In this document: in pieces, positions 1 to 48,918 of the stretch | Numbering within the stretch: the first letter of the stretch is position 1 | Layout: every line of letters starts with the position of its first letter | Assembly: GCA_030066215.1 (NCBI GenBank) | Contig: JASJCA010000030.1 | Span: forward strand, 1 to 48,918 | Reading direction: 5' to 3' | Length of the DNA stretch: 48,918 nt | Source: Rhodobacter sp. | GTDB taxonomy: Bacteria; Pseudomonadota; Alphaproteobacteria; Rhodobacterales; Rhodobacteraceae | Notes under the pieces: model-generated | What the model was told of the DNA's origin: nothing | Seen by the model: the letters and a program-made list of their open reading frames with translations, nothing else | The model's database searches: none | Program-made: the position numbers and the translations under genes

Positions 1-954
1 GATATCCCGATCGAGAACGGCTTTGTCGGCATGGTCGACCGCGAGCACTTCGACGAATTCCTGCGCCAGCGTGCCAAGACGGCCGGAGCGCATCGCTACA
101 AGGGCACCTTCAAGAAACTCGAGCGCGACGGCGACACGACACGCGTCGTCTATCGCGACAAGGTCAGCGGCAACGACTGCAGGTTGCAGACGCGCTATGT
201 CATCGGCGCCGACGGCGCGCGCTCGGACGTCGCGCGGCAAGAGGTACCGGGCGGTGACACGATCCCTTACGTCATCGCCTATCACGAGATCATCGCCGCG
301 CCGGAACTGAAGGGCAGCTACGACCCCAAACGCTGCGACGTGGTCTATGACGGCCGGATCAGCCCCGATTTCTACGGCTGGGTGTTTCCGCACGGCGCGC
401 AAGCCAGCGTCGGCATGGGCACCGGCGTCGACGGGGTCGACCTCAAGAAGGCCACCGCGGATCTGCGCGCCGCCTCGGGCCTCGCCGACTGCCCGACGAT
501 CCGTAAAGAGGGCGCGCCGATCCCACTGCAGCCCTTGGACCGGTGGGACAATGGCCGCGACGTGGTGCTGGCCGGAGATGCCGCCGGCGTCGTGGCGCCA
601 TCCTCCGGCGAAGGCATCTACTATGCTATGATGGGAGGCCGCGTCGCCGCCACGGCCTGCATCTCGGCGCTCGCCACCGGCAACGCCAAGGACCTGAAAC
701 TGGCCCGCAAGATGTTCATGAAAGAGCATAAAATGGTCTTCAAGGTCCTGCGGAGCATGCAGGACGCCTATTATAGGTCCGACGAGCGCCGCGAGCGCTT
801 CGTCAGCCTGTGTCACGATGTCGACGTGCAACGCCTGACCTTCGAGGCCTATATGAACAAGAAACTGGTCAAGGCCCGGCCCATGGCGCATCTGAAAATC
901 GGCCTAAAGAACCTGGCCCACCTGACCCGTCTCGTCTCGCCGTCCTACGTATGA
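1..954 (+). CDS. bchP: Geranylgeranyl reductase BchP, 3' part
   Basis: FAD-dependent geranylgeranyl diphosphate/bacteriochlorophyll reductase. It saturates the geranylgeranyl tail to phytyl at the end of bacteriochlorophyll a synthesis. The reading frame is open from base 1 and has no start here. It begins in the conserved DIPIENGFVGMVDRE segment and keeps the second FAD-binding motif (VVLAGDAAGVVAPSSGEG, about codons 189-206 of the fragment) and a normal C-terminus. The missing N-terminal part is at the other end of the window (48786-48918), which suggests a circular molecule cut inside this gene. The stop overlaps the idi start (ATGA at 951-954), so the two are translationally coupled. The family assignment is firm; the break is a property of the window or contig, not evidence for a pseudogene. 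Confidence 0.93.
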   Translation, partial: DIPIENGFVGMVDREHFDEFLRQRAKTAGAHRYKGTFKKLERDGDTTRVVYRDKVSGNDCRLQTRYVIGADGARSDVARQEVPGGDTIPYVIAYHEIIAAPELKGSYDPKRCDVVYDGRISPDFYGWVFPHGAQASVGMGTGVDGVDLKKATADLRAASGLADCPTIRKEGAPIPLQPLDRWDNGRDVVLAGDAAGVVAPSSGEGIYYAMMGGRVAATACISALATGNAKDLKLARKMFMKEHKMVFKVLRSMQDAYYRSDERRERFVSLCHDVDVQRLTFEAYMNKKLVKARPMAHLKIGLKNLAHLTRLVSPSYV

Positions 955-1481
955 CCGACATGATCCCGGCCTGGGTGAACGGCACACTGACCCCGGTTGA
1001 AAAGCTCGAGGTTCACCGCAAGGGACTGAAGCACAAGGCCGTGTCGGTCTTCGTGATGGACGGCGACAAGGTTCTGATCCAGCAGCGTGCACTGTCGAAG
1101 TACCACACGCCCGGCCTTTGGGCGAACACCTGCTGCACCCATCCATATTGGGACGAGGCGCCCGCCGACTGCGCCGTGCGGCGGCTGCGGGAAGAACTCG
1201 GCATCACCGGCCTGTCGCCATCGCACCGTGACCGCGTCGAATATCGCGCCGATGTCGGCGACGGCCTAACCGAGCACGAAGTGGTCGATATCTTCACCGC
1301 AGAGGCCGGCCCGACCCTCAAGGTCGTCCCAAACCCGGCAGAGGTTGCCGAAACCCGCTGGATCGACCTCTATGAACTCTCGGCCGAGGTTGCCCGCCAT
1401 CCGGCCAGGTTCACGCCTTGGCTGCGTATCTACCTTGAAAAGCACAAAGACCGCATCTTCGGCGCCCTCGCCCGCGTTTGA
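951..1481 (+). CDS. idi: Isopentenyl-diphosphate delta-isomerase (type I)
   Basis: Interconverts isopentenyl and dimethylallyl diphosphate, supplying allylic primer for the carotenoid and phytyl chains. The protein has 176 residues, normal for type I Idi. It contains the Nudix-like core: WANTCCTHPYWDE at about residues 57-69, which holds the catalytic cysteine and metal-binding histidine, followed by RRLREELGI, the Nudix-type helix. The ATG at 951 overlaps the bchP stop. A longer upstream extension in the same frame lies inside bchP and is not needed. It is the last gene of the bchG-orf428-bchP-idi operon. With dxs on the facing strand, two isoprenoid precursor enzymes are carried on this molecule. 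Confidence 0.93.
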   Translation: MTDMIPAWVNGTLTPVEKLEVHRKGLKHKAVSVFVMDGDKVLIQQRALSKYHTPGLWANTCCTHPYWDEAPADCAVRRLREELGITGLSPSHRDRVEYRADVGDGLTEHEVVDIFTAEAGPTLKVVPNPAEVAETRWIDLYELSAEVARHPARFTPWLRIYLEKHKDRIFGALARV

Positions 1482-1501
1482 CAATCTTTGGCAATCTTTG
1501 G
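1482..1501 (+). repeat. Two tandem 10-bp repeats before parD
   Basis: CAATCTTTGG occurs twice in direct succession in the 45-bp gap between idi and parD. A TTGACA that could serve as a -35 element lies at 1478-1483, partly overlapping the idi stop; no convincing -10 is seen. Position and form suit an operator for ParD autorepression, but that is inference. Confidence 0.45.
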
Positions 1502-1526
1502 CATGGTGCTGCAAAGGAGCACTACC

Positions 1527-1784
1527 ATGGCCACGATGAACATCTCTCTGCCCGACAAGATGAAGGAATGGGTCGAGGCGCAGGTCGCCACGGGCCGCTT
1601 TGCCAACGCTTCGGATTACGTCCGCGACATGATCCGCGAAGAGATGGATCGAGAGGCCGCCCTCGCCGAATTCGACCGTCTGATCGAGGAAGCCGAAGCG
1701 AGCGGGATCAGCGAGCGCACGATTGATGAAATAATGGAAGACGCCAGGGCGCGCGCGGACGCCGCTCCGAAAAAACGGGCGTGA
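1527..1784 (+). CDS. parD: ParD-like antitoxin
   Basis: Probable antitoxin of a type II ParDE pair. It has 85 residues. The N-terminus (MNISLPDKMKEWVEAQ) and the following FANASDYVRDMIREEM are the ribbon-helix-helix DNA-binding pattern of ParD/CopG proteins. The C-terminal half is charged and helical, as expected for the toxin-binding part. The ATG at 1527 is preferred over an earlier in-frame start because AAAGGAG at 1513-1519 is correctly spaced. Its stop overlaps the parE start (GTGA), the usual antitoxin-first arrangement. It probably represses its own promoter. It sits between two photosynthesis operons and probably promotes plasmid retention. Confidence 0.85.
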   Translation: MATMNISLPDKMKEWVEAQVATGRFANASDYVRDMIREEMDREAALAEFDRLIEEAEASGISERTIDEIMEDARARADAAPKKRA

Positions 1785-2074
1785 CTTATGAACTCACCCG
1801 CGAAGCCGCAGAGGATGTGGCCGAGATCTTCGTTGCATCAAATGTTGAACATGGCCGCGCCCAAGCAGAAAAGTACCAGGCGGCGTTGATCCACAAACTA
1901 GACCTGGTTGGTGACTTCCCACACATGGGACGGCGTCACAAAAGGCGTGGCGTTGAGCTAAGGGTGGTTCCGCAAGGTGTTCACGTCATCATCTACCGGG
2001 TTATAAAGGACGACACGGCGCTCATTTTGCGGATCTTCCACCAGCGCGAAGATTGGTTTCGGTATCTGCGTTAA
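1781..2074 (+). CDS. parE: ParE-like toxin (RelE/ParE superfamily)
   Basis: Probable toxin of the ParDE pair, 97 residues. Family features seen are an N-terminal [14 protein letters not shown] helix, [10 protein letters not shown] in the middle and the C-terminal pattern HVIIYRVI...[11 protein letters not shown]. Characterised ParE toxins act on DNA gyrase; that target is inferred from the family. The start is GTG at 1781, overlapping the parD stop by four bases. Its stop (2072-2074) overlaps the dxs stop on the other strand, so no spacer or terminator separates the module from dxs. It appears intact. Confidence 0.87.
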
Positions 2075-3993
2075 GCCCGCGCCGCCCCGAATGCCGGCGC
2101 CACGACGCCCAATGCGTCCATCGCCGTCCGTGCGATATCTGCTGCCGTCAGCCCGGCCGCGGCGTACATGGCCGCCGGCGAGTCCTGGTCGATGAAGCGG
2201 TCGGGCAAGGTCATCGTGCGGATCTTCAGACCCCGGTCCAACGCCCCTGCCCCGGCCAGGTACTGCAGCACATGCGCGCCGAATCCGCCCGCCGCGCCCT
2301 GTTCCACCGTGACCAGCACTTCGTGATGCCGCGCCAATTGCCGGATCAGGCCGGTGTCGAGCGGCTTGGCGAAGCGCGCATCCGCCACCGTCGCCGAGAT
2401 ACCGCGCGCCTGCAGCTCCTCAGCCGCCGCCAGCGTCTCGCCCAGATGCGCCCCGAAGGACAGTAGCGCCACGGTCGAGCCCTCCTCTACCACACGGCCC
2501 TTGCCGATTTCCAGAACCTCGCCACGTTCCGGCATCTCCACGCCGACGCCCTCACCACGTGGATAGCGGAAGGCGATCGGTCCCTCGTCATAGGCCGCCG
2601 CCGTGGCCACCATGTGCACCAATTCCGCCTCATCCCCGGCCGCCATCACAACAAACCCCGGCAGATTCGCGAGATAAGCGATGTCGAACGCACCCGCATG
2701 CGTCGCCCCATCCGCGCCGACCAACCCCGCCCGATCGATCGCGAACCGTACAGGTAAACCCTGCAAAGCAACGTCATGCACCACTTGGTCATAGCCGCGC
2801 TGCAGGAACGTCGAGTAGATCGCGCAGAACGGTTTCAACCCGCTCGCCGCCATGCCGGCCGCGAACGTCACGCCGTGCTGTTCGGCGATGCCCACATCAA
2901 ACACCCGTGCGGGGAAGCGGTCAGCCAGGACATTGACACCGGTGCCCGACGGCATCGCCGCCGTCACCGCCACGATTTTTGGATCGCGTTCTGCCTCGGT
3001 GGTCAGCGCGTTTCCGAATACCTTCGTGTATGCCGGCGCATTCGACTTGGACTTCTTCTGTGTGCCCGACACCACATCGAATTTCGACACGCCGTGGTAC
3101 TTGTCCGCCGAGGTCTCGGCCGGCCGGTACCCCTTGCCCTTCACTGTACAGACATGGATCAATGTCGGTCCGGTCGCCCGTGCCCGAGCCGCGCGCAACA
3201 CCGGCAAAAGCTGTGACATGTCGTGGCCGTCGATCGGCCCGACGTAAGAAAACCCGAGCTCCTCGAACAGGGTCCCCTGCCCGCCCGGCAAGCCGGTCAC
3301 AAGCTGCCGCGCCCGGCGCGCGCCTTCGCGGAACGGCCCCGGCAACGCCGCTTCGAAGCCCTCGGCCATCTTCTCGAACGCCGCCGCCTGAGGGCTTGCA
3401 TAGAGACCGCTCAAATAAGCCGACATCGCGCCCACCGGCGGCGCAATCGACATCTCGTTGTCGTTCAGGATCACGAACAGCCGGCGGCCTTCGCTGCCTG
3501 CGTTGTTCAGCGCCTCATAGGCCATGCCGGCCGAGATCGAGCCGTCGCCGATCACCGCGATCGCGTCGCCCGTCGCTTGCCCCATGTCGCGGCCGACGGT
3601 GAAACCCAGAGCCGCCGAGATCGAGGTCGAGGAATGCGCTGCGCCGAACGGGTCGAACTCCGACTCCGTCCGTTTGGTGAACCCGCTCAATCCCCCGCCC
3701 TGGCGCAGCGTCCGAATCCGGTCGCGCCGTCCGGTCAGCACCTTATGCGGATAGCACTGATGCCCCACATCCCAGACCAGCTTGTCGAACGGCGTGTTGA
3801 ACACCGCGTGGATCGCCACGCTCAGTTCGACGACACCAAGCGACGAGCCCAGATGCCCGCCGGTCTCGGACACCGCGGAGATCACCTCGGCGCGCAACTC
3901 GTCGGCCAGCCGCGCCAGCTCAGCGTCGCTGAGAGCCTTCAGATCGGCCGGTCCGGCGACGCGGTCGAGGGTCGGGGTCGTGGGGCGGGACAT
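2071..3993 (-). CDS. dxs: 1-deoxy-D-xylulose-5-phosphate synthase
   Basis: Thiamine-diphosphate enzyme that joins pyruvate and glyceraldehyde 3-phosphate, the first and flux-setting step of the MEP isoprenoid route. It has 640 residues, full length. Motifs: HLGSSLG (about 47-53), [10 protein letters not shown] (about 75-84), the ThDP site [18 protein letters not shown] (about 149-166) and [12 protein letters not shown] (about 177-188). The transketolase C-terminal domain is complete. The ATG at 3993 has GGGAGG six bases upstream (4000-4005). It lies downstream of pufX, as in Rhodobacter, but is separated from the puf genes by a terminator at 4017-4054. It probably gets limited read-through from puf or a promoter not recognised here. 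Confidence 0.95.
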
Positions 3994-4168: not shown

Positions 4169-4411
4169 TCAGATCACGTGGCGACCGTCATCCAGGCGAA
4201 GCTGGGACTCGATCTGCGGCATAGGCTCGGGCGCGGTCTTGCTGTCCTCGGGCAGCAGTTCGCCAATGGCATAGATCACCAGCATGACCGCGATCAGCCC
4301 AAACAGCACCAGTGCGGCGTAGACCGCTCCCATCGCCATGTGTCGAAACACCCAGCCGTAGAGCGAAGGCTTTGCGCCCTCGTGCTCGAGAAACCACTCT
4401 TTGTTCGACAT
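4169..4411 (-). CDS. pufX: Intrinsic membrane protein PufX
   Basis: Small LH1-reaction-centre subunit that in Rhodobacter leaves a gap in the LH1 ring for quinone exchange and can organise dimers. It has 80 residues. A short polar N-terminus is followed by one membrane helix (about 28-50), with a glycine on either side of YAALVLF (positions 29 and 38), and then by GELLPED, matching the Rhodobacter pattern of G..LP after the helix. The C-terminus is polar. AGGAGG at 4420-4425 overlaps the pufM stop and fits the ATG at 4411. PufX sequences diverge strongly, so the call rests on size, topology, this motif and the position after pufM. Many roseobacters have the tetrahaem cytochrome gene pufC here instead. 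Confidence 0.82.
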   Translation of the reverse strand: MSNKEWFLEHEGAKPSLYGWVFRHMAMGAVYAALVLFGLIAVMLVIYAIGELLPEDSKTAPEPMPQIESQLRLDDGRHVI

Positions 4412-4423: not shown

Positions 4424-5350
4424 CTATTGATCGAGCGGCGCGTAGCCGTGCTCTTGCGCCCAGACGTACCAGTTGTCGACGACCGTCCCGGTCAGCAGGA
4501 TGCCGATCCCGCCGGTCAGCGTGCACAAGACCGCAAACCACCAGGCCCAGCGGTGGATGCCTTCCATCGTGGCGTTGAAGCCCATGGTCCAGCGCCAGAA
4601 CAGCGCCGCGCGTTCGCTGGCCGTGCCGCGATCGACGATCTGCTCGATCTCGCGATCGCCGCCGAAGCGTGAGACGGCGAGGATCGTCGCGCCGTGCATG
4701 GCGAAGAGCAGCGCCGAGCCGTAGAGGAACACGATCGAAAGCGCGTGGAACGGGTTGTAGAACAGGTTGCCATAGGTGATCGAAAACAGGTTGGTCCAGT
4801 CGAGATGGGTGAAGATGCCGTAAGGCACCGCCTCGGACCAGCTGCCCATCAGCACCGGCCGGATCAGACCCAGCACCAGGAACAGCCAGATCGCGGACGC
4901 GAAGGCATAGGCCACATGCTTGCCCATCTTCTGCTGTTCGGCCAGCGTCCAGGCGCGGAGCCACCAGGCGCAGACCGAGATCAGCAGGAAGAACGAGGCG
5001 ATCAGGTAGTAGCCTCCCTCAGCCAACGGCGGGAACGACAGCCCATAATCCGGCGACGGCGGATCCAGCGACAGGTAGAACAGATCGCGCATGAAGACGC
5101 CGGGGTTGTACCCCGCCTGTCCCCAAAACCACATGCCGACCATCACGAACCAGATCAGCCCGGTCGCCAGCCCGACTACACCGAACGGCCCAAGATAAAT
5201 CGGCCCCAGCTGTGCATTACCGAACCAGCCCAGAAGCGGCGAGAACGACGCGTTTTTGCTCCGGTCCCGCAGATCGGCATCCTCGACCATGCCCATTTCG
5301 GGCGGACCCTGGACTTGGACCTGAGTGAAGATGTTCTGATAGTTAACCAT
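4424..5350 (-). CDS. pufM: Photosynthetic reaction centre M subunit
   Basis: M subunit of the type II reaction centre. It has 308 residues from the ATG at 5350, beginning [18 protein letters not shown], the typical PufM N-terminus. The track upstream of this ATG is only the overlapping end of pufL. Five membrane helices can be followed. Histidine-containing segments that bind bacteriochlorophyll and the non-haem iron in this family are present (for example HLDWTNLFS and GIHRWAWW). The first 8 bases overlap pufL, a conserved arrangement that couples equimolar L and M synthesis. Confidence 0.97.
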
Positions 5351-6191
5351 TTGCGCCTCCCTCAAGGTCGACCCACCAGGGCAGTTCGATGTACCAATCC
5401 CACCAGGCAATCCACTCGTCGAACCAGACGGTGCCGGAAATTACGATGCAAACCGCGCTCCAGAACCCTGCATTCAGCGCCAACAGCAGACCCAAGCGGT
5501 GAATGCCGAGCGGCCCGATCGAATAGCCGATGAAATCGCGGAAGAACGTGTCCTCGTGATCGGGCGACCGCACGGTCTCGCCCTTTTCGGGGTTCACCGC
5601 CGACAGCACCAGCGAGCCATGCAGCGCCAGCGCCAGCGTCGTGGTGAAGAAGAACGTCACCGCGATCATATGTGCCGGGTTGTAGTGGAAGTTGCCGTAG
5701 GTGTAGCCGGTATTCGACACCCAATCGAGGTGGCTCCAGATCCCGTACGGGAAGCCATAACCCCAGGCGCCCATCAGGATCGGCCGGATCACGACCAGCG
5801 TGGTATATGCCAGGATCGCAAAGCCAAAGGCGATCGGCACATGCAGCCCCATGCCCAGCTTGCGCGCGATTTCCACCTCGCGCAGCATCCAGGATATGAA
5901 GGCCCCGTGCGCGCAGATCGTGATGATCTGCCACAGCCCGCCTTTGTCCAGCGGGGCCGCCCCCAGCCCATATTCCAGGTTCGGCGCAGGGATCGAAATC
6001 AGCCAGGGGTTCCATTCCCCCTGCAGTACCGCGCCGTAGAAGATCAGAATCGTCCCCAGGGCGGCGAAAAAGATCGTCGTCACCCCAAAGAACCCGACGA
6101 AAAACGGCCCGACCCAGAAGTCGAACATCTCTCCGCCGACAAGCGTACCCCCCGGCACGCGATATTTCCGTTCGAAGCTGAGCATTGCCAT
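5343..6191 (-). CDS. pufL: Photosynthetic reaction centre L subunit
   Basis: L subunit of the reaction centre. Together with PufM it holds the special pair, accessory pigments, quinones and iron in the cytoplasmic membrane. It has 282 residues starting [16 protein letters not shown], the invariant family start. Five membrane helices are visible, with [11 protein letters not shown] and the conserved [15 protein letters not shown] near the iron and QB region. The C-terminus is [13 protein letters not shown] plus a short tail. It lies 151 bp downstream of pufA, a spacer holding mRNA hairpins, and overlaps pufM by 8 bp. Confidence 0.97.
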
Positions 6192-6258
6192 ACTTCTGTT
6201 CTCCGCTTGTGGCGGCCTTCGTCGTCAGCGGCGAAGCCGTCGTTCCGTATCGGTGGCC

Positions 6259-6280
6259 GCGGGCGGCGCCGGCCGCCCGC
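6259..6280 (-). other. GC-rich hairpin between pufA and pufL
   Basis: GCGGGCGG (6259-6266) and CCGCCCGC (6273-6280) form an 8-bp all-GC stem with a 6-base loop. In Rhodobacter, stem-loops in this same spacer block 3'-to-5' decay and raise pufBA mRNA over pufLM mRNA. The same role is inferred here. A second, weaker inverted repeat (GCCGGGCCC with GGGTCCGGC on the - strand) lies just after the pufA stop. Confidence 0.6.
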
Positions 6281-6342
6281 AGCATTCTTGCATCGACGAA
6301 TGGGTCGAGGGTGCCGGACCCAGCCGGGCCCGGCGAACGGCG

Positions 6343-6507
6343 TCAGCCGCCCGCCGCCTTCATGGCGGCGATCTCGAACCAGTTGTAGTGGTCGGTGCTC
6401 AGCAGGACGAGGTGAATCATCGCTGCCAGCAGGAAGAGGAAGACCCCCTGCGCCACGAAGACGCGACGCGGATCGAAGATCAGCCAAATCTTGTAGAATT
6501 GGGACAT
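6343..6507 (-). CDS. pufA: Light-harvesting LH1 alpha subunit
   Basis: Core antenna alpha polypeptide of 54 residues. It begins [21 protein letters not shown], the standard LH1-alpha start, and has one membrane helix with the bacteriochlorophyll-binding histidine in [10 protein letters not shown] (His32). DHYNWFEI follows the helix on the periplasmic side. The ATG at 6507 follows the pufB stop by 13 bases. It pairs with PufB to form the ring around the reaction centre. Confidence 0.95.
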
Positions 6508-6520
6508 CCTTCAATCTCCC

Positions 6521-6670
6521 TCAGAACCACGGACGCCAGATGAACGTCGCCAGATGAGCAACCACGGCGATGGCTACGAATAGCCAAAGCCCGCTCATAT
6601 AGACGGCGTGCAGCTCTTGCGCCTGCTCGTCGGTTAGACCTGTGAACGACAGGTCGGTTCTATCACTCAT
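6521..6670 (-). CDS. pufB: Light-harvesting LH1 beta subunit
   Basis: Core antenna beta polypeptide of 49 residues: [20 protein letters not shown], a membrane helix with the pigment-ligating histidine in VVAHLATF (His39), and the typical C-terminus FIWRPWF. The ATG at 6670 is preceded on the - strand by AAAGGAGAG, a good ribosome binding site. It lies upstream of pufA in the usual BA order. Confidence 0.95.
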
Positions 6671-6748
6671 GCAACTCTCCTTTGGATCGTCAGAGTGACG
6701 CCGCGTCCCCCGCGGCCGGGTCCCCTCAAGGCTTTCGGCCCGTCAGGT

Positions 6749-6777
6749 ATTCGCCCCTCCGGGGGGGAGGGGCGAAT
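6749..6777 (-). other. Strong hairpin between pufQ and pufB
   Basis: ATTCGCCCCTCC (6749-6760) and GGAGGGGCGAAT (6766-6777) form a perfect 12-bp stem with a 5-base loop in the 121-bp pufQ-pufB spacer. There is no U tract. It may mark or protect the processed 5' end of the abundant pufBA message, or limit read-through from bchZ/pufQ. The function is inferred. Confidence 0.6.
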
Positions 6778-6791
6778 CTCGAAGTCGGCCC

Positions 6792-7016
6792 TTAGGCCGC
6801 GAATATCATCGGCGTGATGATCCGCGCCTGGCTCCAGGCGCGCGCCACCGGTCCCCGCTCCGGCACGCTCAAGGTCCGCCCGGCCTGCAAGGCCCAGGTC
6901 AGCGTCGCCAAAGGCAGGGTCGCCAGAAAGATGAGGCCGAAATAGACACAGTATTCCCGTTTCGGCGGCACATGGCTGCGCACCTGAACGGGCATGTCCG
7001 GTGTGATATCGGTCAT
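6792..7016 (-). CDS. pufQ: PufQ, bacteriochlorophyll/complex formation protein
   Basis: First gene of the puf operon, 74 residues. A short cytoplasmic N-terminus ([19 protein letters not shown]) runs into one membrane helix (about 24-45), followed by a polar region and a short hydrophobic C-terminus. Genetic work in Rhodobacter links PufQ to bacteriochlorophyll supply and complex formation; its biochemical activity is not settled. The start overlaps the bchZ stop (ATGA at 7013-7016), tying puf to the bchCXYZ superoperon. Confidence 0.88.
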
Positions 7017-8485
7017 CGGGTTCCTCCTTGTTCAGCCGCCGTCGCCCGCAGGGCCTCGACGGTTTCCTTGACCACCCGTTCGGCGCCCTGCGCCAAGGCG
7101 GCGCGTTCGGCGGCATCGCGCAGTGACTTCGCTGCGCTGATCCGGGTGAGAATGGGGTGCTCGGCCACGATCCGGTCGAGCTCTGCCTGGGCATCCGCGT
7201 CCCAGGGGAAATCGCGGCGCAGCGTGGTGGGCGTCGCCGCAGCGCTATCCATTTCTCTGGCCAGCGGCAGGATTTGGAACAACGCGTCGAACAGACCGTT
7301 GCACACCTCCTGCAACAGATAGGTCGCGCCGGCATAGCCCATGAACGGTGTGCCGGTGGCGCGCCGGATCGCGGCGCCAGGGAAGCTCGCTGGGATGAAG
7401 GCCGGCGAGGGCCCATGACCGCCCTTGGTTTCGGCCAAGTAGATCTTCTCGTTGATCGACCCCAGCACAATCAAGGGCCGGTGCTGGCCGATCAGCGCCC
7501 GCACCTCTTCGTTGTTGGTCTTCTTGCCCGCGACCCGCGCCACGGCAAAGGCGCAAGGCAGGCCCAATTCAGACTCTAAGTAATGCCGGATTCCACGCGC
7601 ATAGGTCTCGTTCGCGACGATGCCGAAACTCGCGGTGGCAAAGAAATCTTGCGTCACCGACCGCCAGAGATCCCAGACCGGCTTCAGCGTCGAATGTTTT
7701 TCGCGCTCGATGAACGGCTCAGGATCGAGCCCCAGCATCTCGCCCAGGGTCCGCAGGAACTTCGTCGTCGAGTCCACGCCAATCGGCGCCTGCAGGTACG
7801 GCTTGCCCAGCACCTCAGCGAGGCCCCGGCCAAACTCGCGGTACATCACCACATTGGCATCGGCATTCACCAGATTCCGCATCTCGGCCAGATGCGCGCC
7901 AAGCGGCATGACCATGTTGATCTCGGCGCCGATGCCTTCAACCAGCCGCCGGATCTCGGCCAGGTCCGAGGGCATGTTGAACGTGCCATACATCGGCCCC
8001 AGAATGTTGACCCGCGGCTTCGCGCCCTCTTCGCGTTTCTTCTCGGGCGGCATCCGTCCCTTGGTCATGCCGAACTCGGTGAAGATCCAGGTCATCGCCC
8101 GGTCGGCGGCCTCCCACTGATCTTCATCGATCGTCCGCGGCAGGAAGCGCTGGATGTTCGTACCTTGAGGCGTCACCCCGCCGCCGATCATCTCGGCGAT
8201 CGAGCCGGTGACGACCACGGCCGGCAGCGCCGGATCGAGCGTCTTCCACGCCCGCTTCATCGCGCCCTCGGTCCCGTCGCGGCCCAGCTCTTCCTCGCCC
8301 AGCCCAGTCACCACAATCGGCAATTCATGCGGCGGCAGCGCATCGGTGTAATGCAGAACCGAAGTCACCGGCAGATTTTCACATCCCACCGGCCCATCGA
8401 TCACCACCTGCAAGCCCTTCACGGCACAGAAGGCATAGACCGCCCCCCAATACCCCCCTGCCCTATCGTGATCCTGGATCAGCAT
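7013..8485 (-). CDS. bchZ: Chlorophyllide a reductase subunit BchZ
   Basis: Catalytic-component subunit of chlorophyllide oxidoreductase, which with BchX and BchY reduces ring B on the way to bacteriochlorophyllide a. It has 490 residues from the ATG at 8485 ([19 protein letters not shown]). Conserved segments are [22 protein letters not shown], with a cluster cysteine, and [20 protein letters not shown]. The frame stays open upstream to 8647, but that part has no family similarity. Unlike the tight joins around it, bchZ is separated from bchY by 169 bp containing tandem repeats. It overlaps pufQ by 4 bp. Confidence 0.96.
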
Positions 8486-8547
8486 GGGGACCCGCTCCCA
8501 AGCTTCATCTGGCCAAAAAAATCCTGGGGTGAATTGGCGCAGCCAAG

Positions 8548-8621
8548 AGGGGCAAAGCCCCTGCCCCACCCAGAATGCTGCGCTGCAGTACCGACGTAAT
8601 ACCGACGTAATACCGGCGTTT
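8548..8621 (-). repeat. Tandem 11-bp repeats and small hairpin in the bchY-bchZ spacer
   Basis: TACCGACGTAA is repeated exactly at 8589-8599 and 8600-8610, with a third, changed copy (TACCGGCGTTT) at 8611-8621. The 11-bp period is about one helical turn. Nearby AGGGGC-AAA-GCCCCT (8548-8562) forms a small hairpin. The spacer interrupts an otherwise overlapping operon. Its role is unknown. Confidence 0.6.
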
Positions 8622-8654
8622 TGCAGACAGCGGTTTCTGGGGCCCAAACACGCA

Positions 8655-10220
8655 TCAGATCATCTCCGCCGCCTTCGCGGCCTTGGCCTGGCGGTCGAGC
8701 TTTTTTTGATGCAGCGCGCGGAAGTCCGGCCGCAGGTTCGGATCGCCTTCCCAGATCCCCGCGGTGTCGTTTTCTCCAACGTTTTCAAAAAACTCACGCA
8801 TATGATCCATACGCGCCTTATTGCCGATGGCGGCATTGACCACCTGCGCCAACGACCCCGCCCCGGCGGGCCCCATCAACGGTCGCGCGCTGATCAGATT
8901 GGTGAAGTAAAGCCCTGGAATCCCAAGCTCTTTCGCCTTCTGCACCACCGGCGTCGTTCCAATCGCCAGGTCGGGCCGGATCGCTTCCATCGCGGCGCAA
9001 TCGTCCTCCAGCGACGCCCGGAACTTGACGGTGACACCCCGCGCCTCCAGCCACTCTCGATCCCACTGCGATTGCTTGGTTTTGTGGCAGGCCGTGCCGA
9101 CATACGGCACCTTCGCGCCGCTCTCGATCAGCAGCCGCGCCACCAACAGTTCGCTGCCTTCATAGCCGCTTAAGGTAATTGTGCCATTTATGGGCGTTGC
9201 CGAGAGGGCGCCCTTGATTGCGGGCAAGATCGCGTTTTGCGCCTCCGCCACTTTGTTGGCGGCCAGGCCGAAGGCGTCGCCGATGGCGGCCAACCAGGCT
9301 GCCGTCCCGTCATGGCCCACCGGCGCAGACCCGACGATAGGCCGCCCCGCGGCTTCGAACTCGCGCATCGATGCGCTGTAGAACGGATGGATTGCTGCCA
9401 CCGCGCCGCAGTCCAAAGCGGAGTATAGCTCGCGCCACTCGCGGCATGGCACGGTCGGACCGACGGCTAGCCCGAGCGGCTCCAAAAGTCGAGAGATAAC
9501 AACGGGATCGGCCGGGAACATCTCGCCCAGCAGAGTTACGGTTGGTCGGTCGGATTTGCCGCCCACCGGCGCCTGGACCGGCCCGGCTTCGGCCTCTTCC
9601 CGCGCATAGGCCAGCATCGCGCCCGCCAGCACGTCCTTGGCCTCGGCATGGGTCGGCACGCCGAAGCCCGGCACGTCGATACCGATGATCCGCACGCCAT
9701 TGATTTCCTTGGGCAAAAGCCGCAGCGGCACGCCGCTTGCCGTGGGCACGCACAGGTTCGTCACCACCACCGCGTCGTACCGGTCCGGATCCGCCAGCTC
9801 GTGCACCGAATCGCGGATGTCCTCGAACAACTTGCCGGTCACCAGTGTCTCGGAATTGAACGGCACATAGCCCACCGACCGCCGCGCGCCGTAGAAATGC
9901 GACACGAAAGTCAGGCCATAGACACAGCAAGCCGATCCCGAAAGCACCGTCGCCACTCGCCGCATCCGCAAACCGACGCGCAATGACCCGAAGGCCGGGC
10001 ACATCGACTGCGGCTTGTCATGGGGCCCTTGTGGATAGTCCCGGGCGTAACGGTCCAACACATCCGACTTCCCCGCCGCCCGCGCCGCAACCTTCATCTG
10101 ATCGGCGCCCGCGTGACAGCCCATGCCATCGCCACTACGCAGATCAGGGGCCTCGCCCCCGGCGCGCGCCTCGATCACCTCGGCCTCACTGGCGGTGTCG
10201 TATGTGACTTCAGCAGCCAA
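8655..10220 (-). CDS. bchY: Chlorophyllide a reductase subunit BchY
   Basis: NifD-like partner of BchZ in chlorophyllide oxidoreductase, about 521 residues. It contains [25 protein letters not shown] and [12 protein letters not shown], with cysteines of the kind that hold the iron-sulphur cluster. [19 protein letters not shown] and [16 protein letters not shown] are also characteristic. The start is uncertain. A TTG at 10218-10220 directly follows the bchX stop (TGATTG) and would give translational coupling; a later ATG (about codon 33) would remove residues not strongly conserved. The gene is intact. Confidence 0.93.
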
Positions 10221-11225
10221 TCAGACCTCGTCGTAGATCACTTCAAGCGACTGTTTCGGCTTGGCATTCGCCCCTCGCATGTCTTCGTCGGTCGCGGGTT
10301 CCAGCACGAAATCCGCCCCCGTCTCGTCCGCAGAAAACAATGCAAGCAGCGCGTCCTGAGACAGGGGCGCGGGACGAAGGGGTGGCGCGTCGGCCACGTT
10401 GGCAGCAAGCTCGGTGAACATATCGCCCCACGGCCCCGCCTTCGTTCCCACGATCTGGTAATTGGCTGATTTCTTGCGCAAATCGTCGTCCGCCGGGATC
10501 GACGCCAGCACCGGGATGTCGACCGCGCGCGCAAACGCCGCCGCTTCACCGGTGCCGTCGTCCTTGTTGATCACCAGCCCCGCGACGCCGACATTGCCGC
10601 CGAGCTTGCGGAAGTACTCGACCGCCGAGCAGACGTTGTTGGCGACATAAAGCGATTGCAGGTCGTTCGATCCCACTAGGATCACCTTCTGCGCCATGTC
10701 GCGTGCGATCGGCAGGCCGAAGCCGCCGCAGACCACGTCGCCCAGAAAATCGAGAAGCACATAGTCGAAGTCCCAGTCATGGAAGCCGAGCTTCTCCAAG
10801 AGCTCGAAGCCATGGATGATCCCGCGCCCGCCGCAGCCCCGTCCGACCTCTGGCCCGCCGAGTTCCATCGCGAAGACGCCGCCGCGTTTAAAGCACACGT
10901 CGCCGATATCGACCTCTTCACCGGCGAGCTTCTTCTGGGTCGAGGTCTCGATGATCGTCGGGCAGGCCTTGCCGCCGAACAAGAGCGAGGTGGTGTCTGA
11001 TTTCGGGTCGCAGCCGATCAGCAGCACGCGCTTGCCCATCTCGGCCATCATGTGGCTGAGGTTGGCCAGCGTGAACGACTTGCCGATCCCGCCCTTTCCG
11101 TAGATCGCGATGATCTGCGTCTTCTTGGTCGGCGGGTCCAGGGGCACCTCGAGCGTCGGCTCTTCGGCCGCTTCGTCCTTTAGCTTTGCATCGTAGGCAC
11201 GCAGATTCGGGATATCGAGCGTCAT
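10221..11225 (-). CDS. bchX: Chlorophyllide a reductase iron protein BchX
   Basis: NifH-like ATP-dependent electron donor to BchYZ, 334 residues. The P-loop YGKGGIGKS is at about 42-50. The two cysteine motifs for the bridging 4Fe-4S cluster are in [11 protein letters not shown] and [10 protein letters not shown]. The acidic, variable N-terminus before the P-loop distinguishes it from BchL. The ATG at 11225 overlaps the bchC stop (ATGA). Confidence 0.96.

Positions 11226-36084: not shown

Positions 36085-36085
<1 letters not shown>
35405..36085 (-). CDS. bchM: Mg-protoporphyrin IX O-methyltransferase
   Basis: SAM-dependent methyltransferase that makes Mg-protoporphyrin IX monomethyl ester, the AcsF substrate. 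It has 226 residues. The N-terminal YFDRTASKTWERLTSDAPVS and SAM site VLDAGCGAGPMSVALAERGA (about 61-80) are clear, as is FDFVMAMDSLIHYRA. The ATG overlaps the bchL stop by one base. Confidence 0.95.
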
Positions 36086-43924
<7,839 letters not shown>

Positions 43925-44128: not shown

Positions 44129-44242
44129 ATCTCTTTGACATCGACTGCCAAGCGGGCGTAGTGTCACCGGCAGTCGCGACACGTGGCGAAACGCTGCCGA
44201 TCTGCCCAGCGTTCCACTGGCGACGAGCAAGGGTACGCGTTG

Positions 44243-45046
44243 ATGATCGACGGCCCAGATTATGCGGCTGCCCGCGGGGGTGCTAGGGACGAACAGACCG
44301 TCGAGTCGCTCGCCTCTCGGGTCATCTCTGTTCTCGCGGCCCGGGTCAACGGACCGAAGACGGGCGCCGACGACCGGCTGTTGGCGCGGCTTTGCGCCGC
44401 CGCGCAGTCACAGGATCCGACCGACCATTCCGATGTGATCGAAGAGATGCTCGCCGCCGGCATTCAACGGCGCAGCATTGCCGATGTTTACATCCCCGTT
44501 GCCGCACGGCGGTTGGGCGTGGCGTGGTGTGAGGATCAGACGAGCTTCGCCGAAGTCACCATCGGCACTTCCCGATTGCAGTCGATGCTACGCGGCCTGG
44601 GCGGCGTTTGGTCCGGCGACGTGGCAGAGCCTCACGAGATCCAACCCACCGTTCTGATGATCGTGCCGGCCGATGAATATCACACCTTGGGCGCGATGGT
44701 GGCGACGGGGCAATTGCGCCGCGCCGGTGTCTCGGTGCGTCTGTGCGCCGGCCAATCCACCGCGATGATCCTGGACCTGGTTGAGTCGTTCAATTTCGAT
44801 GTCATCATGATATCCAGTGCCTCCAGCGAAAAGCTCGAGACGGTGCGCAAATTGATCGTCGACATCCGGTATTCCTTGCTGAACCCGACGCCGATCGTGG
44901 TTGGCGGCGCGGTGTTGGAGCTGGCCAGGGAAATCAAGGCGGTCACTGGAGCCGATCACGCCACCAACGACATCCAAGAGGCGCTTAGACTGTGCAAGTT
45001 GACGGCTTATCTGGCCGACAGCGCCCATTCCAATCCGCAGGGTTAG
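44243..45046 (+). CDS. ppaA: PpaA/AerR-type photosynthesis regulator
   Basis: Regulator related to the C-terminal part of AppA, with a cobalamin-binding-like domain. In Rhodobacter PpaA/AerR works with PpsR/CrtJ on photosynthesis promoters. It has 267 residues from the ATG at 44243 (MIDGPDYAAARG) with AAGGG upstream. A helical N-terminal part (about 20-115) precedes the Rossmann-like domain containing VPADEYHTLGAMVATGQLRR (about 138-157), whose histidine is the expected cobalamin-side ligand, and FDVIMISSASSEKLETV. Next gene is ppsR, 38 bp away. Confidence 0.88.
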   Translation: MIDGPDYAAARGGARDEQTVESLASRVISVLAARVNGPKTGADDRLLARLCAAAQSQDPTDHSDVIEEMLAAGIQRRSIADVYIPVAARRLGVAWCEDQTSFAEVTIGTSRLQSMLRGLGGVWSGDVAEPHEIQPTVLMIVPADEYHTLGAMVATGQLRRAGVSVRLCAGQSTAMILDLVESFNFDVIMISSASSEKLETVRKLIVDIRYSLLNPTPIVVGGAVLELAREIKAVTGADHATNDIQEALRLCKLTAYLADSAHSNPQG

Positions 45047-45084
45047 CGGATGCCGCCAGTTTCAATTTCGCGGAGGTCGGGCAA

Positions 45085-46500
45085 GTGACGTCTCGGGGCA
45101 CGCGCTACTGGACAAGCGGAGCAATTCCGCTGGTCGCGCCGGAGCTTCTGGGCGACATCATAGCCACCGCCTCGGACATCTCGTTGGTGATTTCCGATGT
45201 CGGCAAGATTCTGTCGGTCCTCGTCAATCCAACTCACCCGTCCTTCGGCAATCTCGATCACTGGGACGGCCGTGACATCCGCAGCTTTCTGACCGTCGAG
45301 AGCGTGCCGAAGCTCGATGCGGTATTGGACGACATCGCACGCGACGAGATTCCCAAGCGCGGGATCGAATTGAACCATTCGGACGGGACGACTTGGGAAT
45401 TCCCTGTCCGATACACGTTCCATCAGATCGGGCCAGACGGCGCGCTTTTGATGCTTGGGCGCGATCTGCGTCCGATCGCCGAGATGCAGCAACAACTGGT
45501 CAAGGCGCAACTGGCGCTGGAACGCGACTACGAGGCGCAACGCGAATTCGACACCCGCTACCGCGTATTGATGGAGGCGACCCGCGAAGGCGTCGCCTTT
45601 GTCGCAGTTGCGACCGGCAAGATCAGTGACGTCAACGATGCTGCCGCCACACTCTTTGGGGCCACCCGCGCCGAGCTGACCGGTGCTGCCTTCGCGCAAG
45701 AATTCGAAGGCCGCCGGCGGGGTGAACTGCTGGAAAGCCTGACCAACACGGCCATCGCCGACGGGGCACGACCGGTCGAATTGCAGGCGCGCCGGTCGCG
45801 CAAGCGCCTAAGTGTCTCGCCCTCGCTGTTCCGCGCGGCGGGCGAGCGGCTGCTGCTCTGCCGGATCGAAAGCGCCGACGAAGACGAGCCGATTACCGAC
45901 GAGCTGTCGGAAAACCTGTCAGGCCTCTACCAGGAGGGTGCCGACGGCATCGTCTTCACCGATCGCGACGGTATCATCCGCGCCGCGAACGAGGCATTTC
46001 TGGACCTTGCCGATGTCGCCCATCTGACGCTGGTCAAGGGCAAGTCGCTGGGCGAGTACCTGTCACGCGGCTCGGTCGATCTGAAGGTCTTGATCGAGAA
46101 CGCGGTTCGGTCAGGGCACATGAAGATGTACGCCACCAAGCTCGCCAGCGAATACGGCGCGCAGGTGTCGGTGGAGATTTCAGCGACATTCCTCAATGAC
46201 CGCGCCAATCCGTCGCTCGTCTTTGTCATCCGCGACGCCAGCCGGGCCGATGCCGTACGCCAGCATGGGGTCACGGTCACTGACGACGGGGTGCGTAGCG
46301 TGATGGAATTGGTGGGCAACGCCACGCTGAAGGACATCGTGGCCGAAACCACCGACGTGGTCGAAAAGATGTGCATCGAGACCGCCGTCGAATTGACCCG
46401 CAACAACCGTGTCGCGGCGGCCGAGATGCTGGGGCTCAGCCGGCAAAGCCTCTATGTCAAGCTGCGCAAATACGGGTTGCTGCACAAAGACGTCGACTGA
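45085..46500 (+). CDS. ppsR: Photosynthesis repressor PpsR (CrtJ)
   Basis: Redox-responsive transcription factor that binds TGT-N12-ACA boxes and represses pigment and antenna genes under oxygen. It has 471 residues from the GTG at 45085 (TSRGTRYWTSGAIPLVAPE follows), with GGAGG upstream. An N-terminal sensory domain, a Q-linker and two PAS domains (about 140-260 and 275-400) precede a Fis-type helix-turn-helix (NNRVAAAEMLGLSRQSLYVK). Cysteines at about 259 and 430 correspond to the redox-active pair. The ten boxes in this window are its expected targets. Confidence 0.94.
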   Translation: MTSRGTRYWTSGAIPLVAPELLGDIIATASDISLVISDVGKILSVLVNPTHPSFGNLDHWDGRDIRSFLTVESVPKLDAVLDDIARDEIPKRGIELNHSDGTTWEFPVRYTFHQIGPDGALLMLGRDLRPIAEMQQQLVKAQLALERDYEAQREFDTRYRVLMEATREGVAFVAVATGKISDVNDAAATLFGATRAELTGAAFAQEFEGRRRGELLESLTNTAIADGARPVELQARRSRKRLSVSPSLFRAAGERLLLCRIESADEDEPITDELSENLSGLYQEGADGIVFTDRDGIIRAANEAFLDLADVAHLTLVKGKSLGEYLSRGSVDLKVLIENAVRSGHMKMYATKLASEYGAQVSVEISATFLNDRANPSLVFVIRDASRADAVRQHGVTVTDDGVRSVMELVGNATLKDIVAETTDVVEKMCIETAVELTRNNRVAAAEMLGLSRQSLYVKLRKYGLLHKDVD

Positions 46501-46591: not shown

Positions 46592-47500
46592 ATGAGTGTC
46601 AGCGAAAGTTTACATACCCGGCGCTTGCCCGATCCCGCGGCGATGCTGGAGCTGATCAAGCCGATCACCTGGTTTCCGCCGATGTGGGCCTATCTCTGCG
46701 GCATCGTCTCGGCCGGCGTCGCGCCCTGGTCGCAATGGGGCCTTGTGCTGATTGGCGTCGTTCTGGCCGGCCCCGTAGTCTGCGGCATGAGTCAGGCGGC
46801 GAACGACTGGTGCGACCGCCAGGTCGACGCGATCAACGAGCCGCGCAGGCCGATCCCGTCCGGCCGCATCCCCGGCCGCTGGGGCCTTTGGATCGCGCTG
46901 GCGATGACGGCGCTGTCGCTGGCGCTTGGCTATACGCTCGGGCCTTGGGGGTTCGGCGCCACCGTCGTCGCGGTACTCGCCGCCTGGGCCTATAGCGCCG
47001 AGCCGGTGCGCCTGAAACGCTCGGGCTGGCTCGGTCCCGGCCTCGTCGGGCTGTGCTACGAGGGCCTGCCCTGGTTCACCGGTGCGGCGGTCCTGGCCCA
47101 GGGCGCGCCGGCCTTTCCGGTGATCGTGGTCGCGACGCTTTACGCGCTCGGCGCCCACGGCATCATGACGCTGAATGACTTCAAGGCGCTCGAGGGCGAC
47201 CGGCAGACCGGCGTCCGGTCGCTGCCCGTCACCCAAGGGCCTGAGGTCGCCGCCAGGATCGCCTGCATCGGCATGGCCGTGCCGCAACTGGTGGTCGTCT
47301 CGATGCTGGTCATATGGGGACGCCCCTGGCACGCGCTCGCTGTCGCCGCCGTCCTGCTGGCGCAACTCGCCGCCATGCGCGTGATGCTGCGCGACCCTAA
47401 GGCCAAGGCGCCCTGGTACAACAGCACCGGCGTCGTGTTCTACGTCGCCGGCATGATGATCACCGCCTTCGCCGTGCGCACGTTGGAGATCGGCCCATGA
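46592..47500 (+). CDS. bchG: Bacteriochlorophyll a synthase (geranylgeranyl transferase)
   Basis: Membrane prenyltransferase of the UbiA family that esterifies bacteriochlorophyllide a with geranylgeranyl diphosphate. It has 302 residues and about eight helices. The aspartate-rich substrate motif is SQAANDWCDRQVDAINEPRR (about 67-86), and the second is GIMTLNDFKALEGDRQTGVR (about 190-209). First gene of bchG-orf428-bchP-idi; the stop overlaps the next start. A PpsR box lies within its first codons. Confidence 0.95.
   Translation: MSVSESLHTRRLPDPAAMLELIKPITWFPPMWAYLCGIVSAGVAPWSQWGLVLIGVVLAGPVVCGMSQAANDWCDRQVDAINEPRRPIPSGRIPGRWGLWIALAMTALSLALGYTLGPWGFGATVVAVLAAWAYSAEPVRLKRSGWLGPGLVGLCYEGLPWFTGAAVLAQGAPAFPVIVVATLYALGAHGIMTLNDFKALEGDRQTGVRSLPVTQGPEVAARIACIGMAVPQLVVVSMLVIWGRPWHALAVAAVLLAQLAAMRVMLRDPKAKAPWYNSTGVVFYVAGMMITAFAVRTLEIGP
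46597..46614. promoter_or_regulatory. PpsR/CrtJ box inside the start of bchG
   Basis: TGTCAGCGAAAGTTTACA matches TGT-N12-ACA and covers bchG codons 2-8. With the box at 46510-46527 it brackets the probable promoter; being downstream it would block elongation or open-complex formation. Confidence 0.75.
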
Positions 47501-48783
47501 CGCTGTCCTGGCTGCAGATCGTCCGACTGGGACTTGTGCAGATGTGCCTCGGCGCCATCGTCGTGCTGACCACATCGACCCTAAACCGGCTGATGGTCGT
47601 CGAATTGGCGCTGCCCGCGGTGCTGCCCGGACTGCTCGTCGCGCTGCATTACGGCATCCAGATCACCCGGCCGAACTGGGGTTTCTTGAGCGACACCGGT
47701 GGCCACCGGACACGGTGGATCATCGGCGGCATGGTTGTGCTGGCGCTTGGCGGCCTCGGCGCCGCGTTCGGTGTCTTCGTGCTTGAGGCCAGTTTTGCCG
47801 CCGGCCTCGCCATCTCCATTGCCGCCTATGCGCTGATCGGCCTCGGCGTCGGCGCCTCGGGCACCTCGCTGCTCGCACTGCTGGCCACCGCGACCGCCCC
47901 GCGTCGCCGCGCCGCTGCCGCCACCATCACCTGGCTGATGATGATCGCCGGCATCGCCGTCACCGCCGCCACCGTTGGCGCGTTCCTCGACCCCTACAGC
48001 CCAGCACTCTTGCTGCGGATCGTCGCCGTCGTCACCGGCGGGGCCGTGGTGCTGACCGTCTTCGCCGTCTGGGGCATCGAGCAAAAAGTCATCGCCCGGA
48101 CCGAGCCCGACCCGATGCCGTTCCGCGACGGAATCCGCGAGATCTGGTCCGAACGCCCCGCGCGCAACTTCACTATCTTCGTGTTCCTGTCGATGACCGC
48201 CTATTTCATGCAAGAGCTGATCCTGGAGCCGTACGCTGGCCTCGTCTTCGCCTTTACGCCCGGCCAGTCCACTTCGCTGTCCGGCGCCCAGAACGGCGGC
48301 GTCTTCCTCGGCATGGTGCTCGTCGGCGTCATGGCCACCGGCCTGCGGATCGGGTCATTGCGCAACTGGGTCGTCTTCGGATGCCTCGGCTCGGCCAGTG
48401 CACTTACCATAATCATGATTATGGGACAAAGCGGCCCGGGGGCACCGCTGATGGCCGCTGTCGTGGGATTGGGCTTTTTCAACGGCATGTTCGCCGTCGC
48501 CGCCATCGGCGCGATGATGGCGCTGGCCGGTCAGGGGCGCGGCCGGCGCGAGGGGACGCGCATGGGCCTTTGGGGTGCGGCGCAGGCCATCGCTGCGGGT
48601 TTCGGCGGTCTGCTCGGCGCCGCCGCCGTCGATGTGATGCGCGCGATGACGGGCACTGCGACGGCCTTTGGCACCGTCTTTCTGTTCGAGGCGCTGCTCT
48701 TTCTCGCCTCCGCAGTAATGGCGCTGCGCATCATGGAAGGCGGCGCGCCCCGCCCTAGCGCATATCTGGTTCCGGGAGAATGA
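47497..48783 (+). CDS. ORF428-type BCH2/PucC-family membrane protein
   Basis: Major-facilitator-like protein of 428 residues, exactly the size of 'ORF428' found between bchG and bchP in Rhodobacter. About twelve hydrophobic helices are seen. TTSTLNRLMVVELALPAVLP, RPNWGFLSDTGGHRTRWIIG and FMQELILEPYAGLVFAF match the LhaA/PucC family. Its function is not settled; moving or chaperoning bacteriochlorophyll near BchG/BchP is inferred from context and homology. The ATG overlaps the bchG stop, and the stop is 2 bp before bchP. Confidence 0.92.
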   Translation: MTLSWLQIVRLGLVQMCLGAIVVLTTSTLNRLMVVELALPAVLPGLLVALHYGIQITRPNWGFLSDTGGHRTRWIIGGMVVLALGGLGAAFGVFVLEASFAAGLAISIAAYALIGLGVGASGTSLLALLATATAPRRRAAAATITWLMMIAGIAVTAATVGAFLDPYSPALLLRIVAVVTGGAVVLTVFAVWGIEQKVIARTEPDPMPFRDGIREIWSERPARNFTIFVFLSMTAYFMQELILEPYAGLVFAFTPGQSTSLSGAQNGGVFLGMVLVGVMATGLRIGSLRNWVVFGCLGSASALTIIMIMGQSGPGAPLMAAVVGLGFFNGMFAVAAIGAMMALAGQGRGRREGTRMGLWGAAQAIAAGFGGLLGAAAVDVMRAMTGTATAFGTVFLFEALLFLASAVMALRIMEGGAPRPSAYLVPGE

Positions 48784-48785
48784 CG

Positions 48786-48918
48786 ATGATCTATGATGTG
48801 GTAGTCGTGGGCGGCGGACCCTGTGGCGCGACCGCGGCCGAGGACCTGGCGCGGGCCGGCAAAAAGGTCGCGATGATCGACCGGGCGGGCCGGATCAAGC
48901 CCTGCGGCGGCGCCATCC
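48786..48918 (+). CDS. bchP: Geranylgeranyl reductase BchP, 5' part
   Basis: The first 44 codons of bchP, cut by the window end. MIYDVVVVGGGPCGATAAED contains the N-terminal FAD-binding GxGxxG motif, and the fragment ends in GRIKPCGGAI, conserved in BchP. The family continues for about 30 residues before the segment found at base 1, so 48786-48918 plus 1-954 together would give a normal gene of roughly 390-400 codons. The two parts do not join in frame directly: the missing stretch must be 2 bases plus a multiple of 3. Confidence 0.92.
   Translation, partial: MIYDVVVVGGGPCGATAAEDLARAGKKVAMIDRAGRIKPCGGAI

Follow-up and report, generated by a model that had tools for sequence, protein, structure and literature searches.

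A near-complete photosynthesis gene cluster next to a replication module

The 48,918-bp stretch analysed here (hereafter the window) is the entire contig C16 (JASJCA010000030.1) of a Rhodobacter sp. genome of 4.55 Mb, which is assembled in 211 contigs and 89% complete. It carries a photosynthesis gene cluster with 38 of the 38 core genes on our analysis list, of which bchP is split between the two contig ends and short of 95 unread bp. The genes outside the photosynthesis set are rep, parA and parB, located between bchO and cycA, and the toxin-antitoxin pair parD and parE, located between idi and dxs. Comparison with related clusters indicates that the contig is likely a closed circular plasmid of ~49.0 kb, a reading that is well supported if short of proof. 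The features central to it are as follows.

1..954, plus strand: bchP, C-terminal part (TIGR02023), continuing the part at 48780..48918 if the contig is a ring
48780..48918, plus strand: bchP, first 46 residues (N-terminal part), truncated at the contig end
1488..1784, plus strand: parD antitoxin (TIGR02606, PF03693)
1781..2074, plus strand: parE toxin, 97 amino acids (PF05016, 63 bits), overlapping parD
22817..22832, plus strand: candidate ParB site in bchD, a parS-like palindrome with exact 14-bp core
24299..25381, minus strand: parB (PF02195 match just under the cut-off)
25378..26679, minus strand: parA; product 81-83% identical to its counterparts on four photosynthesis plasmids
25687..25702, plus strand: candidate ParB site in parA, a perfect 16-bp palindrome
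26680..26990: parA-rep intergenic region, probably the replication origin, with a degenerate palindrome at 26780-26795
26991..27818, plus strand: rep, initiator of DnaA-like I type by homology

The contig ends point to a ring

An earlier annotation of the window made from its letters alone (the first-pass annotation) had placed both ends inside one bchP in the same orientation, with about 30 residues missing between the parts, and had proposed a circle of about 49.0 kb. The encoded protein bears this placement out. The left end (1-954) encodes the C-terminal 317 residues of BchP, recognized by the TIGR02023 bchP model at 430.8 bits, and the right end (48780-48917) encodes the first 46 residues, on the same strand and in the same frame. 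Elsewhere in the genome the model matched only weakly, three times and never above 22 bits, so the second bchP copy that the first-pass annotation had named as a counter-indication was not found; pufL and pufM are likewise single copy. Among 36 related sequences compared, the two bchP parts are separated by exactly 96 bp in all 33 clusters that hold both. One of these 96 bases is already in the window, which leaves 95 bp unseen, close to the residue estimate, and gives a ring of 48,918 + 95 = 49,013 bp. The gene order bchG-bch2-bchP-idi, which spans the contig ends, is intact in relatives. The proposed circle is thereby supported by the gene order over the ends, the invariant gap and the replicon type of rep-parAB, but closure itself was unobserved. 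An insertion sequence or cargo insertion in bchP was considered as the cause of the contig break and rejected, as 95 bp are missing rather than duplicated or displaced.

The cluster is of the type with pufX, acsF, a crt set including crtA, ppsR, a B12-binding ppaA-like regulator, hemA, cycA, idi and dxs, and idi, dxs, hemA, cycA and tspO likewise lie inside the clusters of annotated relatives. Its remaining genes are listed below.

810..1481, plus strand: idi, isopentenyl-diphosphate isomerase; the open reading frame (ORF) overlaps bchP and the true start is probably inside it
2071..3993, minus strand: dxs
4169..4411, minus strand: pufX (PF11511); pufC was not found
4424..7016, minus strand: pufM, pufL, pufA, pufB, pufQ; pufB and pufQ by position and tblastn matches, with pufB at approximately 6517-6700 because its query was partly out of frame
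7013..12163, minus strand: bchZ, bchY, bchX, bchC
12277..14332, minus strand: crtF, crtE; ncbifam methyltransferase and prenyl synthase matches below cut-offs, names from annotated relatives
14397..16792, plus strand: crtD, crtC; crtC has no Pfam match and takes its name from its position and from annotated relatives
16827..19924, minus strand: tspO, crtB, crtI
20118..24302, plus strand: crtA, bchI, bchD, bchO
27881..28393, minus strand: cycA, cytochrome c2-like
28564..35408, minus strand: hemA, puhE, acsF, a conserved 98-amino-acid ORF, puhC, puhB, puhA, lhaA (PF03209)
35405..43911, minus strand: bchM, bchL, bchH, bchB, bchN, bchF
44183..46500, plus strand: ppaA/aerR-like B12-binding regulator (named by position and domain), ppsR
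46592..48783, plus strand: bchG, bch2 (PucC family)

The 98-amino-acid ORF is the sole unassigned gene on this map. Coding density is ~95% by gene list, and the photosynthesis cluster, spacers included, occupies ~91.5% of the 49,013-bp ring. The G+C content of 64.3% compares with 61.2-67.2% in pieces of four other contigs of the same genome, and an Rfam scan of the window gave zero matches. The map agrees with the earlier claim that only replication, partition and toxin-antitoxin genes accompany the photosynthesis genes; the description of the cluster as complete holds for the core gene list but not for the ~95 unread bases of bchP. Elsewhere in the genome, a second dxs-like stretch (contig C67:273-2136) has 74% DNA identity to the plasmid copy.

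The replicon belongs to a known type of photosynthesis plasmid

ParA resembles the ParA of photosynthesis plasmids from Tateyamaria omphalii, Roseobacter litoralis, R. ponti and Thalassococcus sp. S3 (81-83% identity), and Rep is 64% identical to its homologues on pDOK1-4-3 (T. omphalii) and pS3A (Thalassococcus). Assignment to the DnaA-like I type rests on homology to a plasmid placed in that type by Liu 2019 (PMC6739100). In the window rep-parAB sits between bchO and cycA/hemA, as on known photosynthesis plasmids, and the accessible parts of Brinkmann 2018 and Liu 2019 describe the replication module of DnaA-like I photosynthesis plasmids at that very place. A repeat search of the parA-rep gap found no iterons.

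In a family sample of 394 genomes, pufM was found in 166 and a Rep homologue in 104. At least 12 genomes, the present one included, carry Rep and the cluster on one contig, with Rep ~22-23.5 kb from pufM (three of them counted round the ring). Three of the contigs are ring-like: G116 C33 (49,231 bp, 139-bp terminal overlap), G105 C6 (50,779 bp, 127-bp terminal overlap) and G081 C2 (48,915 bp), in which dxs runs on across the ends with no base missing and two codons for the last six bases. All three share with the window its size, gene order, rep-par site and near-absence of cargo, but they come from other genera and their proteins are mostly 50-89% identical, a few lower.

Streamlined phototrophic plasmids have been published for Oceanicola sp. 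HL-35 (44 kb), Jannaschia pohangensis (49.5 kb) and Shimia sp. wx04 (54 kb) (Liu 2019). As far as the accessible text of that paper states, these resemble the window in their small size, in a content of >80% photosynthesis genes, a threshold that the window also exceeds, and in DnaA-like I replication; HL-35 and wx04 also have the replication module within the cluster. HL-35 differs in being of pufC type, the J. pohangensis plasmid in its uninterrupted superoperon, and wx04 (a 54,394-bp contig) in 2.8 kb between ppsR and bchG. The window differs from all three by parDE at idi/dxs and by a sister species whose cluster lies outside this type of replicon. Among larger plasmids, pRLO149_94 (R. litoralis, 93.6 kb) and pDOK1-4-3 (77.6 kb) likewise have parA-parB adjoining bchO, ParA 82-83% identical, equal gene order in the parts compared, and palindromes (see below) in bchD and in or near parA; a palindrome in bchO is exact in pDOK1-4-3 and has one mismatch in pRLO149_94. 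Unlike the window, they carry unrelated cargo, pufC rather than pufX, and more palindromes.

The window is one more case to add to the already published minimal photosynthesis plasmids. The first-pass annotation had seen in it something close to a minimal, transferable phototrophy replicon, about half the size of known photosynthesis plasmids. The ~91.5% share of the cluster and the near-lack of cargo agree with the word minimal, but with 44, 49.5 and 54 kb on record in Liu 2019, as far as accessible, the replicon is neither new nor smallest, and the size comparison is true of many such plasmids but not of all. Its candidacy as the smallest or first minimal phototrophy replicon was rejected in view of the published 44-kb plasmid and the 48,915-bp ring-like contig of G081. 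Transferability found no support, as a mobilisation gene is absent from the gene map, which leaves little room for one. No relaxase is on the map, where gaps are short, although no search aimed at relaxases or at oriT, the origin of transfer, was made; conjugation systems have so far gone undetected on such plasmids according to the part of Brinkmann 2018 available.

The sister species has the same cluster, open at the replication site

Genome G126, the sole other genome of the genus compared, has its cluster on the 283-kb contig C23, with 38 of 38 core genes in an order identical to that of the window. Its genes are 57-96% identical to those of the window, mostly 80-96%. The G126 cluster is linear and ends at bchO and cycA, the exact joint that holds rep-parAB in the window. 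Neither rep, parA nor parB of this type turned up in the 140 kb examined around it, and the G126 genome as a whole yielded no Rep. Window and G126 were sisters with a support of 1.000 (FastTree, 20 genes, 8,443 columns), and a three-gene tree gave the same pairing.

The three genes next to parB, namely bchI, bchD and bchO, are the top three of the 38 in window-G126 divergence relative to outgroups, at 0.76, 0.87 and 0.82 compared with a median of 0.48. Judged from these sequences, the bchI-bchD-bchO tract looks as if it was brought along with the replication module, or exchanged in G126.

We also examined the flanks of the G126 cluster. A PAS histidine kinase gene adjoins cycA and the cluster in G126 (C23:157354-159606) and an inositol operon in the window's own genome (G000 C202:31665-33923); a search at 1e-150 found no match in 32 other genomes, so that only these two of 34 carry it. 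Polarising the difference between window and G126 by this neighbourhood was abandoned for want of any match in those 32. No empty site emerged: the flank on the right side matches contig C73 at its end. Just past bchO in G126 C23 (L068:641-817) lies an interspersed repeat of ~175 bp with copies 69-83% identical, of which there are dozens in the window's own genome (~40 places listed) and about five in 140 kb of G126.

A palindrome near parA recurs in bchD and bchO of plasmid clusters

The palindrome TGTCCCCGCGGGGACA occurs in the window within parA (25687) and, with one outer mismatch, within bchD (22817); a third copy upstream of parA has three mismatches. Over 52 full-length parA loci we counted 251 exact 14-bp cores, every one of them between -1 and +5 kb relative to the parA start, where a uniform distribution would put 71; at least one core is present in 73 of 80 parA loci.

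We compared plasmid with non-plasmid clusters, the latter being those whose examined pieces contain no rep-parAB of this type. The core lies in bchD or bchO of 9/11 plasmid clusters and 0/28 non-plasmid clusters (Fisher p = 2.6e-7, relatedness ignored), and no site with up to 2 mismatches was found in 1.78 Mb of non-plasmid sequence. This test set aside the S. alexandrii plasmid half (without bchD and bchO), G063, and G366 (bchD outside the piece), and added G115. The 22 bchD and bchO genes of the 11 plasmids contain 27 cores; 200 synonymous-codon shuffles gave a mean of 0.365 and a maximum of 3. This excess, with cores in all three reading frames, argues for selection on the DNA.

Individual genomes extend the picture. 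In G105 the common form is absent, and a variant palindrome, GTTCCCCGCGGGGAAC, occurs in four exact copies (C6: 5778, 7578, 8624, 9620), located in bchO, bchD, parB and just upstream of parA, which hints at a shifted ParB specificity; counting this variant as a site, which would give 10/11, is post hoc. G116 has palindromes in parA and parB only and none in bchD or bchO. On contig C17 of G063 (L274:12288-13433), a lone parB, 44% identical to window ParB, stands beside the 3' end of bchO. Three exact palindromes go with it, in bchD, between the two genes and in parB. No parA or rep was found beside it in the sequence examined, and a distant Rep homologue (38%) is on another contig. The arrangement looks like the possible remains of an integrated photosynthesis plasmid.

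From its position, copy number and codon-independent conservation, the palindrome is likely the ParB site. A literature search, not extending to the 2011 paper that defines DnaA-like plasmids, found no description of this site in the sources as far as accessible. That it is some other recombination or regulatory site of this plasmid type is unlikely in our estimate. ParB binding is proposed from sequence features, and in many loci the site has a constant position within the parA coding sequence, which could suit another function; against this, none of the 251 copies in the 52 loci is more than a few kb from parA, they usually occur several together, and the four copies of one variant in G105 are as expected of a site that follows its ParB.

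Non-plasmid clusters follow the ring order with different cut points

We then scored the gene order of 28 non-plasmid clusters against that of the window. Strand classes drew on 149 of the 166 pufM genomes and 150 of the 163 puhE genomes, with 15 more entering via bchY; 52 of the 149 were left out, their pufM and puhE markers being on different contigs, and 66 of the 97 same-contig genomes have puf and puh on one strand. All 28 scored clusters are from this same-strand class, so their conformity to one cyclic order is partly a matter of selection. The 31 opposite-strand clusters are not simple ring permutations, and G268, the only one examined (in part), has an inverted block.

All but one of the 28 clusters keep the ring order of the window without internal break, the exception being G035 with one inversion. 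Setting aside G035 and four truncated clusters (G264, G366, G144, G157), 23 intact clusters give a cut point: bchO/cycA in 13, crtC/tspO in five, idi/dxs in three and ppsR/bchG in two, all other junctions being closed. Six of the 23 are without one core gene at the tblastn limits used. On the gene map, the ring has convergent operon junctions only at bchO/cycA, crtC/tspO and idi/dxs. Several clusters lie on megabase contigs (G369, 3.55 Mb; G188, 4.08 Mb; G278, 2.99 Mb) and are therefore chromosomal. Three of the 23 come close to a contig end, on the cycA side in G180 (206 bp) and G140 (2.5 kb) and on the bchG side in G312 (3.1 kb); the cut in G180 therefore rests on the bchO side. On the 20-gene tree, in which G144 kept its crtC/tspO label, the cut point changed at least six times among 24 labelled non-plasmid clusters (1,000 label shuffles: mean 10.1, minimum 6), and rings fall at six separate places. 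The five crtC/tspO-cut genomes in which the search reached far enough into the flank on the crtC side (L262, L266, L268, L270, L272) have a ParA-family gene ~15-16 kb from the crtC end, 22-26% identical to window ParA, which suggests one common chromosomal site.

Judging from these orders, many chromosomal clusters may be one ring opened at different points. In the accessible part of Zheng 2011, arrangement types I and III are a 'permutation and combination' of two regions, and that of Liu 2019 describes types I and II; by our reading of these descriptions, each pair, I/III and I/II, is a circular permutation. A literature search with most subscription papers outside it found no publication that calls cluster layouts circular permutations, and neither Brinkmann 2018 nor Liu 2019 contains 'permut' in its main text as far as accessible.

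Origin of the ring and alternative explanations

The best explanation overall, which we consider highly probable, is that a near-complete photosynthesis cluster, rep-parAB and parDE are joined on one closed ring of ~49.0 kb, with the following roles and origin. The DnaA-like I type Rep would start replication near the parA-rep intergenic region, and ParA and ParB would segregate the ring through the palindromes in parA and in the photosynthesis gene bchD. As a putative addiction system, ParDE would kill cells that have lost the ring or slow them down. Judged by gene content and pathway knowledge, the cluster should give its host bacteriochlorophyll a, spheroidene-type carotenoids and a complex of reaction centre, light-harvesting complex 1 and PufX (RC-LH1-PufX) under PpsR/PpaA control. 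The ring most likely arose from a chromosomal cluster ending at bchO and cycA, as in G126, that was joined by a rep-parAB module, perhaps when it recombined with a pre-existing photosynthesis plasmid that also contributed bchI-bchD-bchO. We favour this direction, from chromosome to plasmid in the lineage of the window, only narrowly over the reverse, because the palindromes are absent from G126, G180 and G140 and few in the window.

Several observations weigh against this explanation or parts of it. The genome assembly is fragmented, and the contig has no terminal repeat: its 600-bp ends lack any common same-strand 11-mer and so the assembly is not closed; the 95 bp and the closure lie outside the observed sequence. 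A tRNA search found no tRNA gene in 140 kb of the 283-kb G126 contig, which is not proven chromosomal, and ParB-like genes 33-37% identical occur on two other G126 contigs. Single-gene trees pair the window with G126 for bchD (1.0) and bchO (0.94), which speaks against their having been replaced outright. Next beyond G126 comes a group that combines the non-plasmid G180 and G140 with the ring G116 at supports of 0.79-0.86, and the three-gene tree, which agrees on the pairing of window and G126, places other clusters next than the 20-gene tree does. The window itself has two good palindromes and one degenerate, and one of 100 shuffles has three such matches.

We weighed these points together with the rival readings. 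It is very improbable that the contig belongs to some larger plasmid or to a chromosome, with bchP split by an insertion or a big cargo block and ends that do not meet. The lack of a terminal overlap, an assembly that ends within bchP, and the tens of kb of cargo on many photosynthesis plasmids would all be compatible with it. However, an insertion would leave bchP complete over both sides, and instead 95 bp are missing; inserts >2.5 kb in relatives are at operon boundaries (idi/dxs, ppsR/bchG, bchO/cycA, crtC/tspO), with zero in the measured bchP stretch of 33 clusters; and ring-like contigs of 48.9-50.8 kb are known in three other genera. With a closed ring as the preferred reading, its history could also have run backwards: a ring already present in the ancestor shared by the window species and G126 would have been integrated by G126 at its rep-par site, with loss of rep-par. 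We consider this rather unlikely, though G126, G140 and, on the bchO side, G180 open exactly at bchO/cycA, the rep-par site, with G116 falling among them, a pattern that repeated integration would fit, and the lone parB and three palindromes of G063 resemble an integrated plasmid relic; Brinkmann 2018, in the part available, argues for such insourcing. On the other side, the palindrome, even with up to 2 mismatches, is absent from G126 and 27 other non-plasmid clusters although relics persist in G063, and G180 and G140 are without a Rep homologue.

The permuted chromosomal orders, in turn, might stem from ordinary block movement without a ring intermediate, a serious possibility to which we give somewhat less than an even chance. 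The cluster's only convergent operon junctions account for three of the four cut points, and breaks would be tolerated there anyway; a swap of two blocks making up the whole cluster yields the identical result, and other rearrangements do occur, with the puf and puh parts opposite in 31 of the 97 same-contig clusters. Harder to reconcile with block movement are the 23 intact clusters with four cut points, one cyclic order and no internal break, and the existence of plasmid rings of that order. For the ring as the common form, the widest reading is that the cluster is at root a ring, of which chromosomal clusters are the state opened at one of a few operon boundaries and plasmids the closed state, and that in plasmids the centromere would spread into bchD and bchO as ParB sites, so that pigment genes would double as segregation site; the window, with its single bchD site and a sister species whose cluster is not on such a replicon, would be a young ring at an early stage of this spread. 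We see the chances for and against this reading as balanced.

Implications

It is still an open question how entire photosynthesis clusters pass from one bacterium to another, and the published model of plasmid transport followed by chromosomal reintegration was built largely on trees. With a cargo-free ring and a linear cluster open at the replication site in one genus, the exchange becomes testable at the level of the junction. If the partition site truly lies inside bchD and bchO, a second constraint would act on the evolution of these enzyme genes, and any palindromes remaining in a chromosomal cluster would readily mark it as formerly plasmid-borne. If chromosomal layouts are indeed cuts of one ring, gene order alone would record past ring forms in many genomes.

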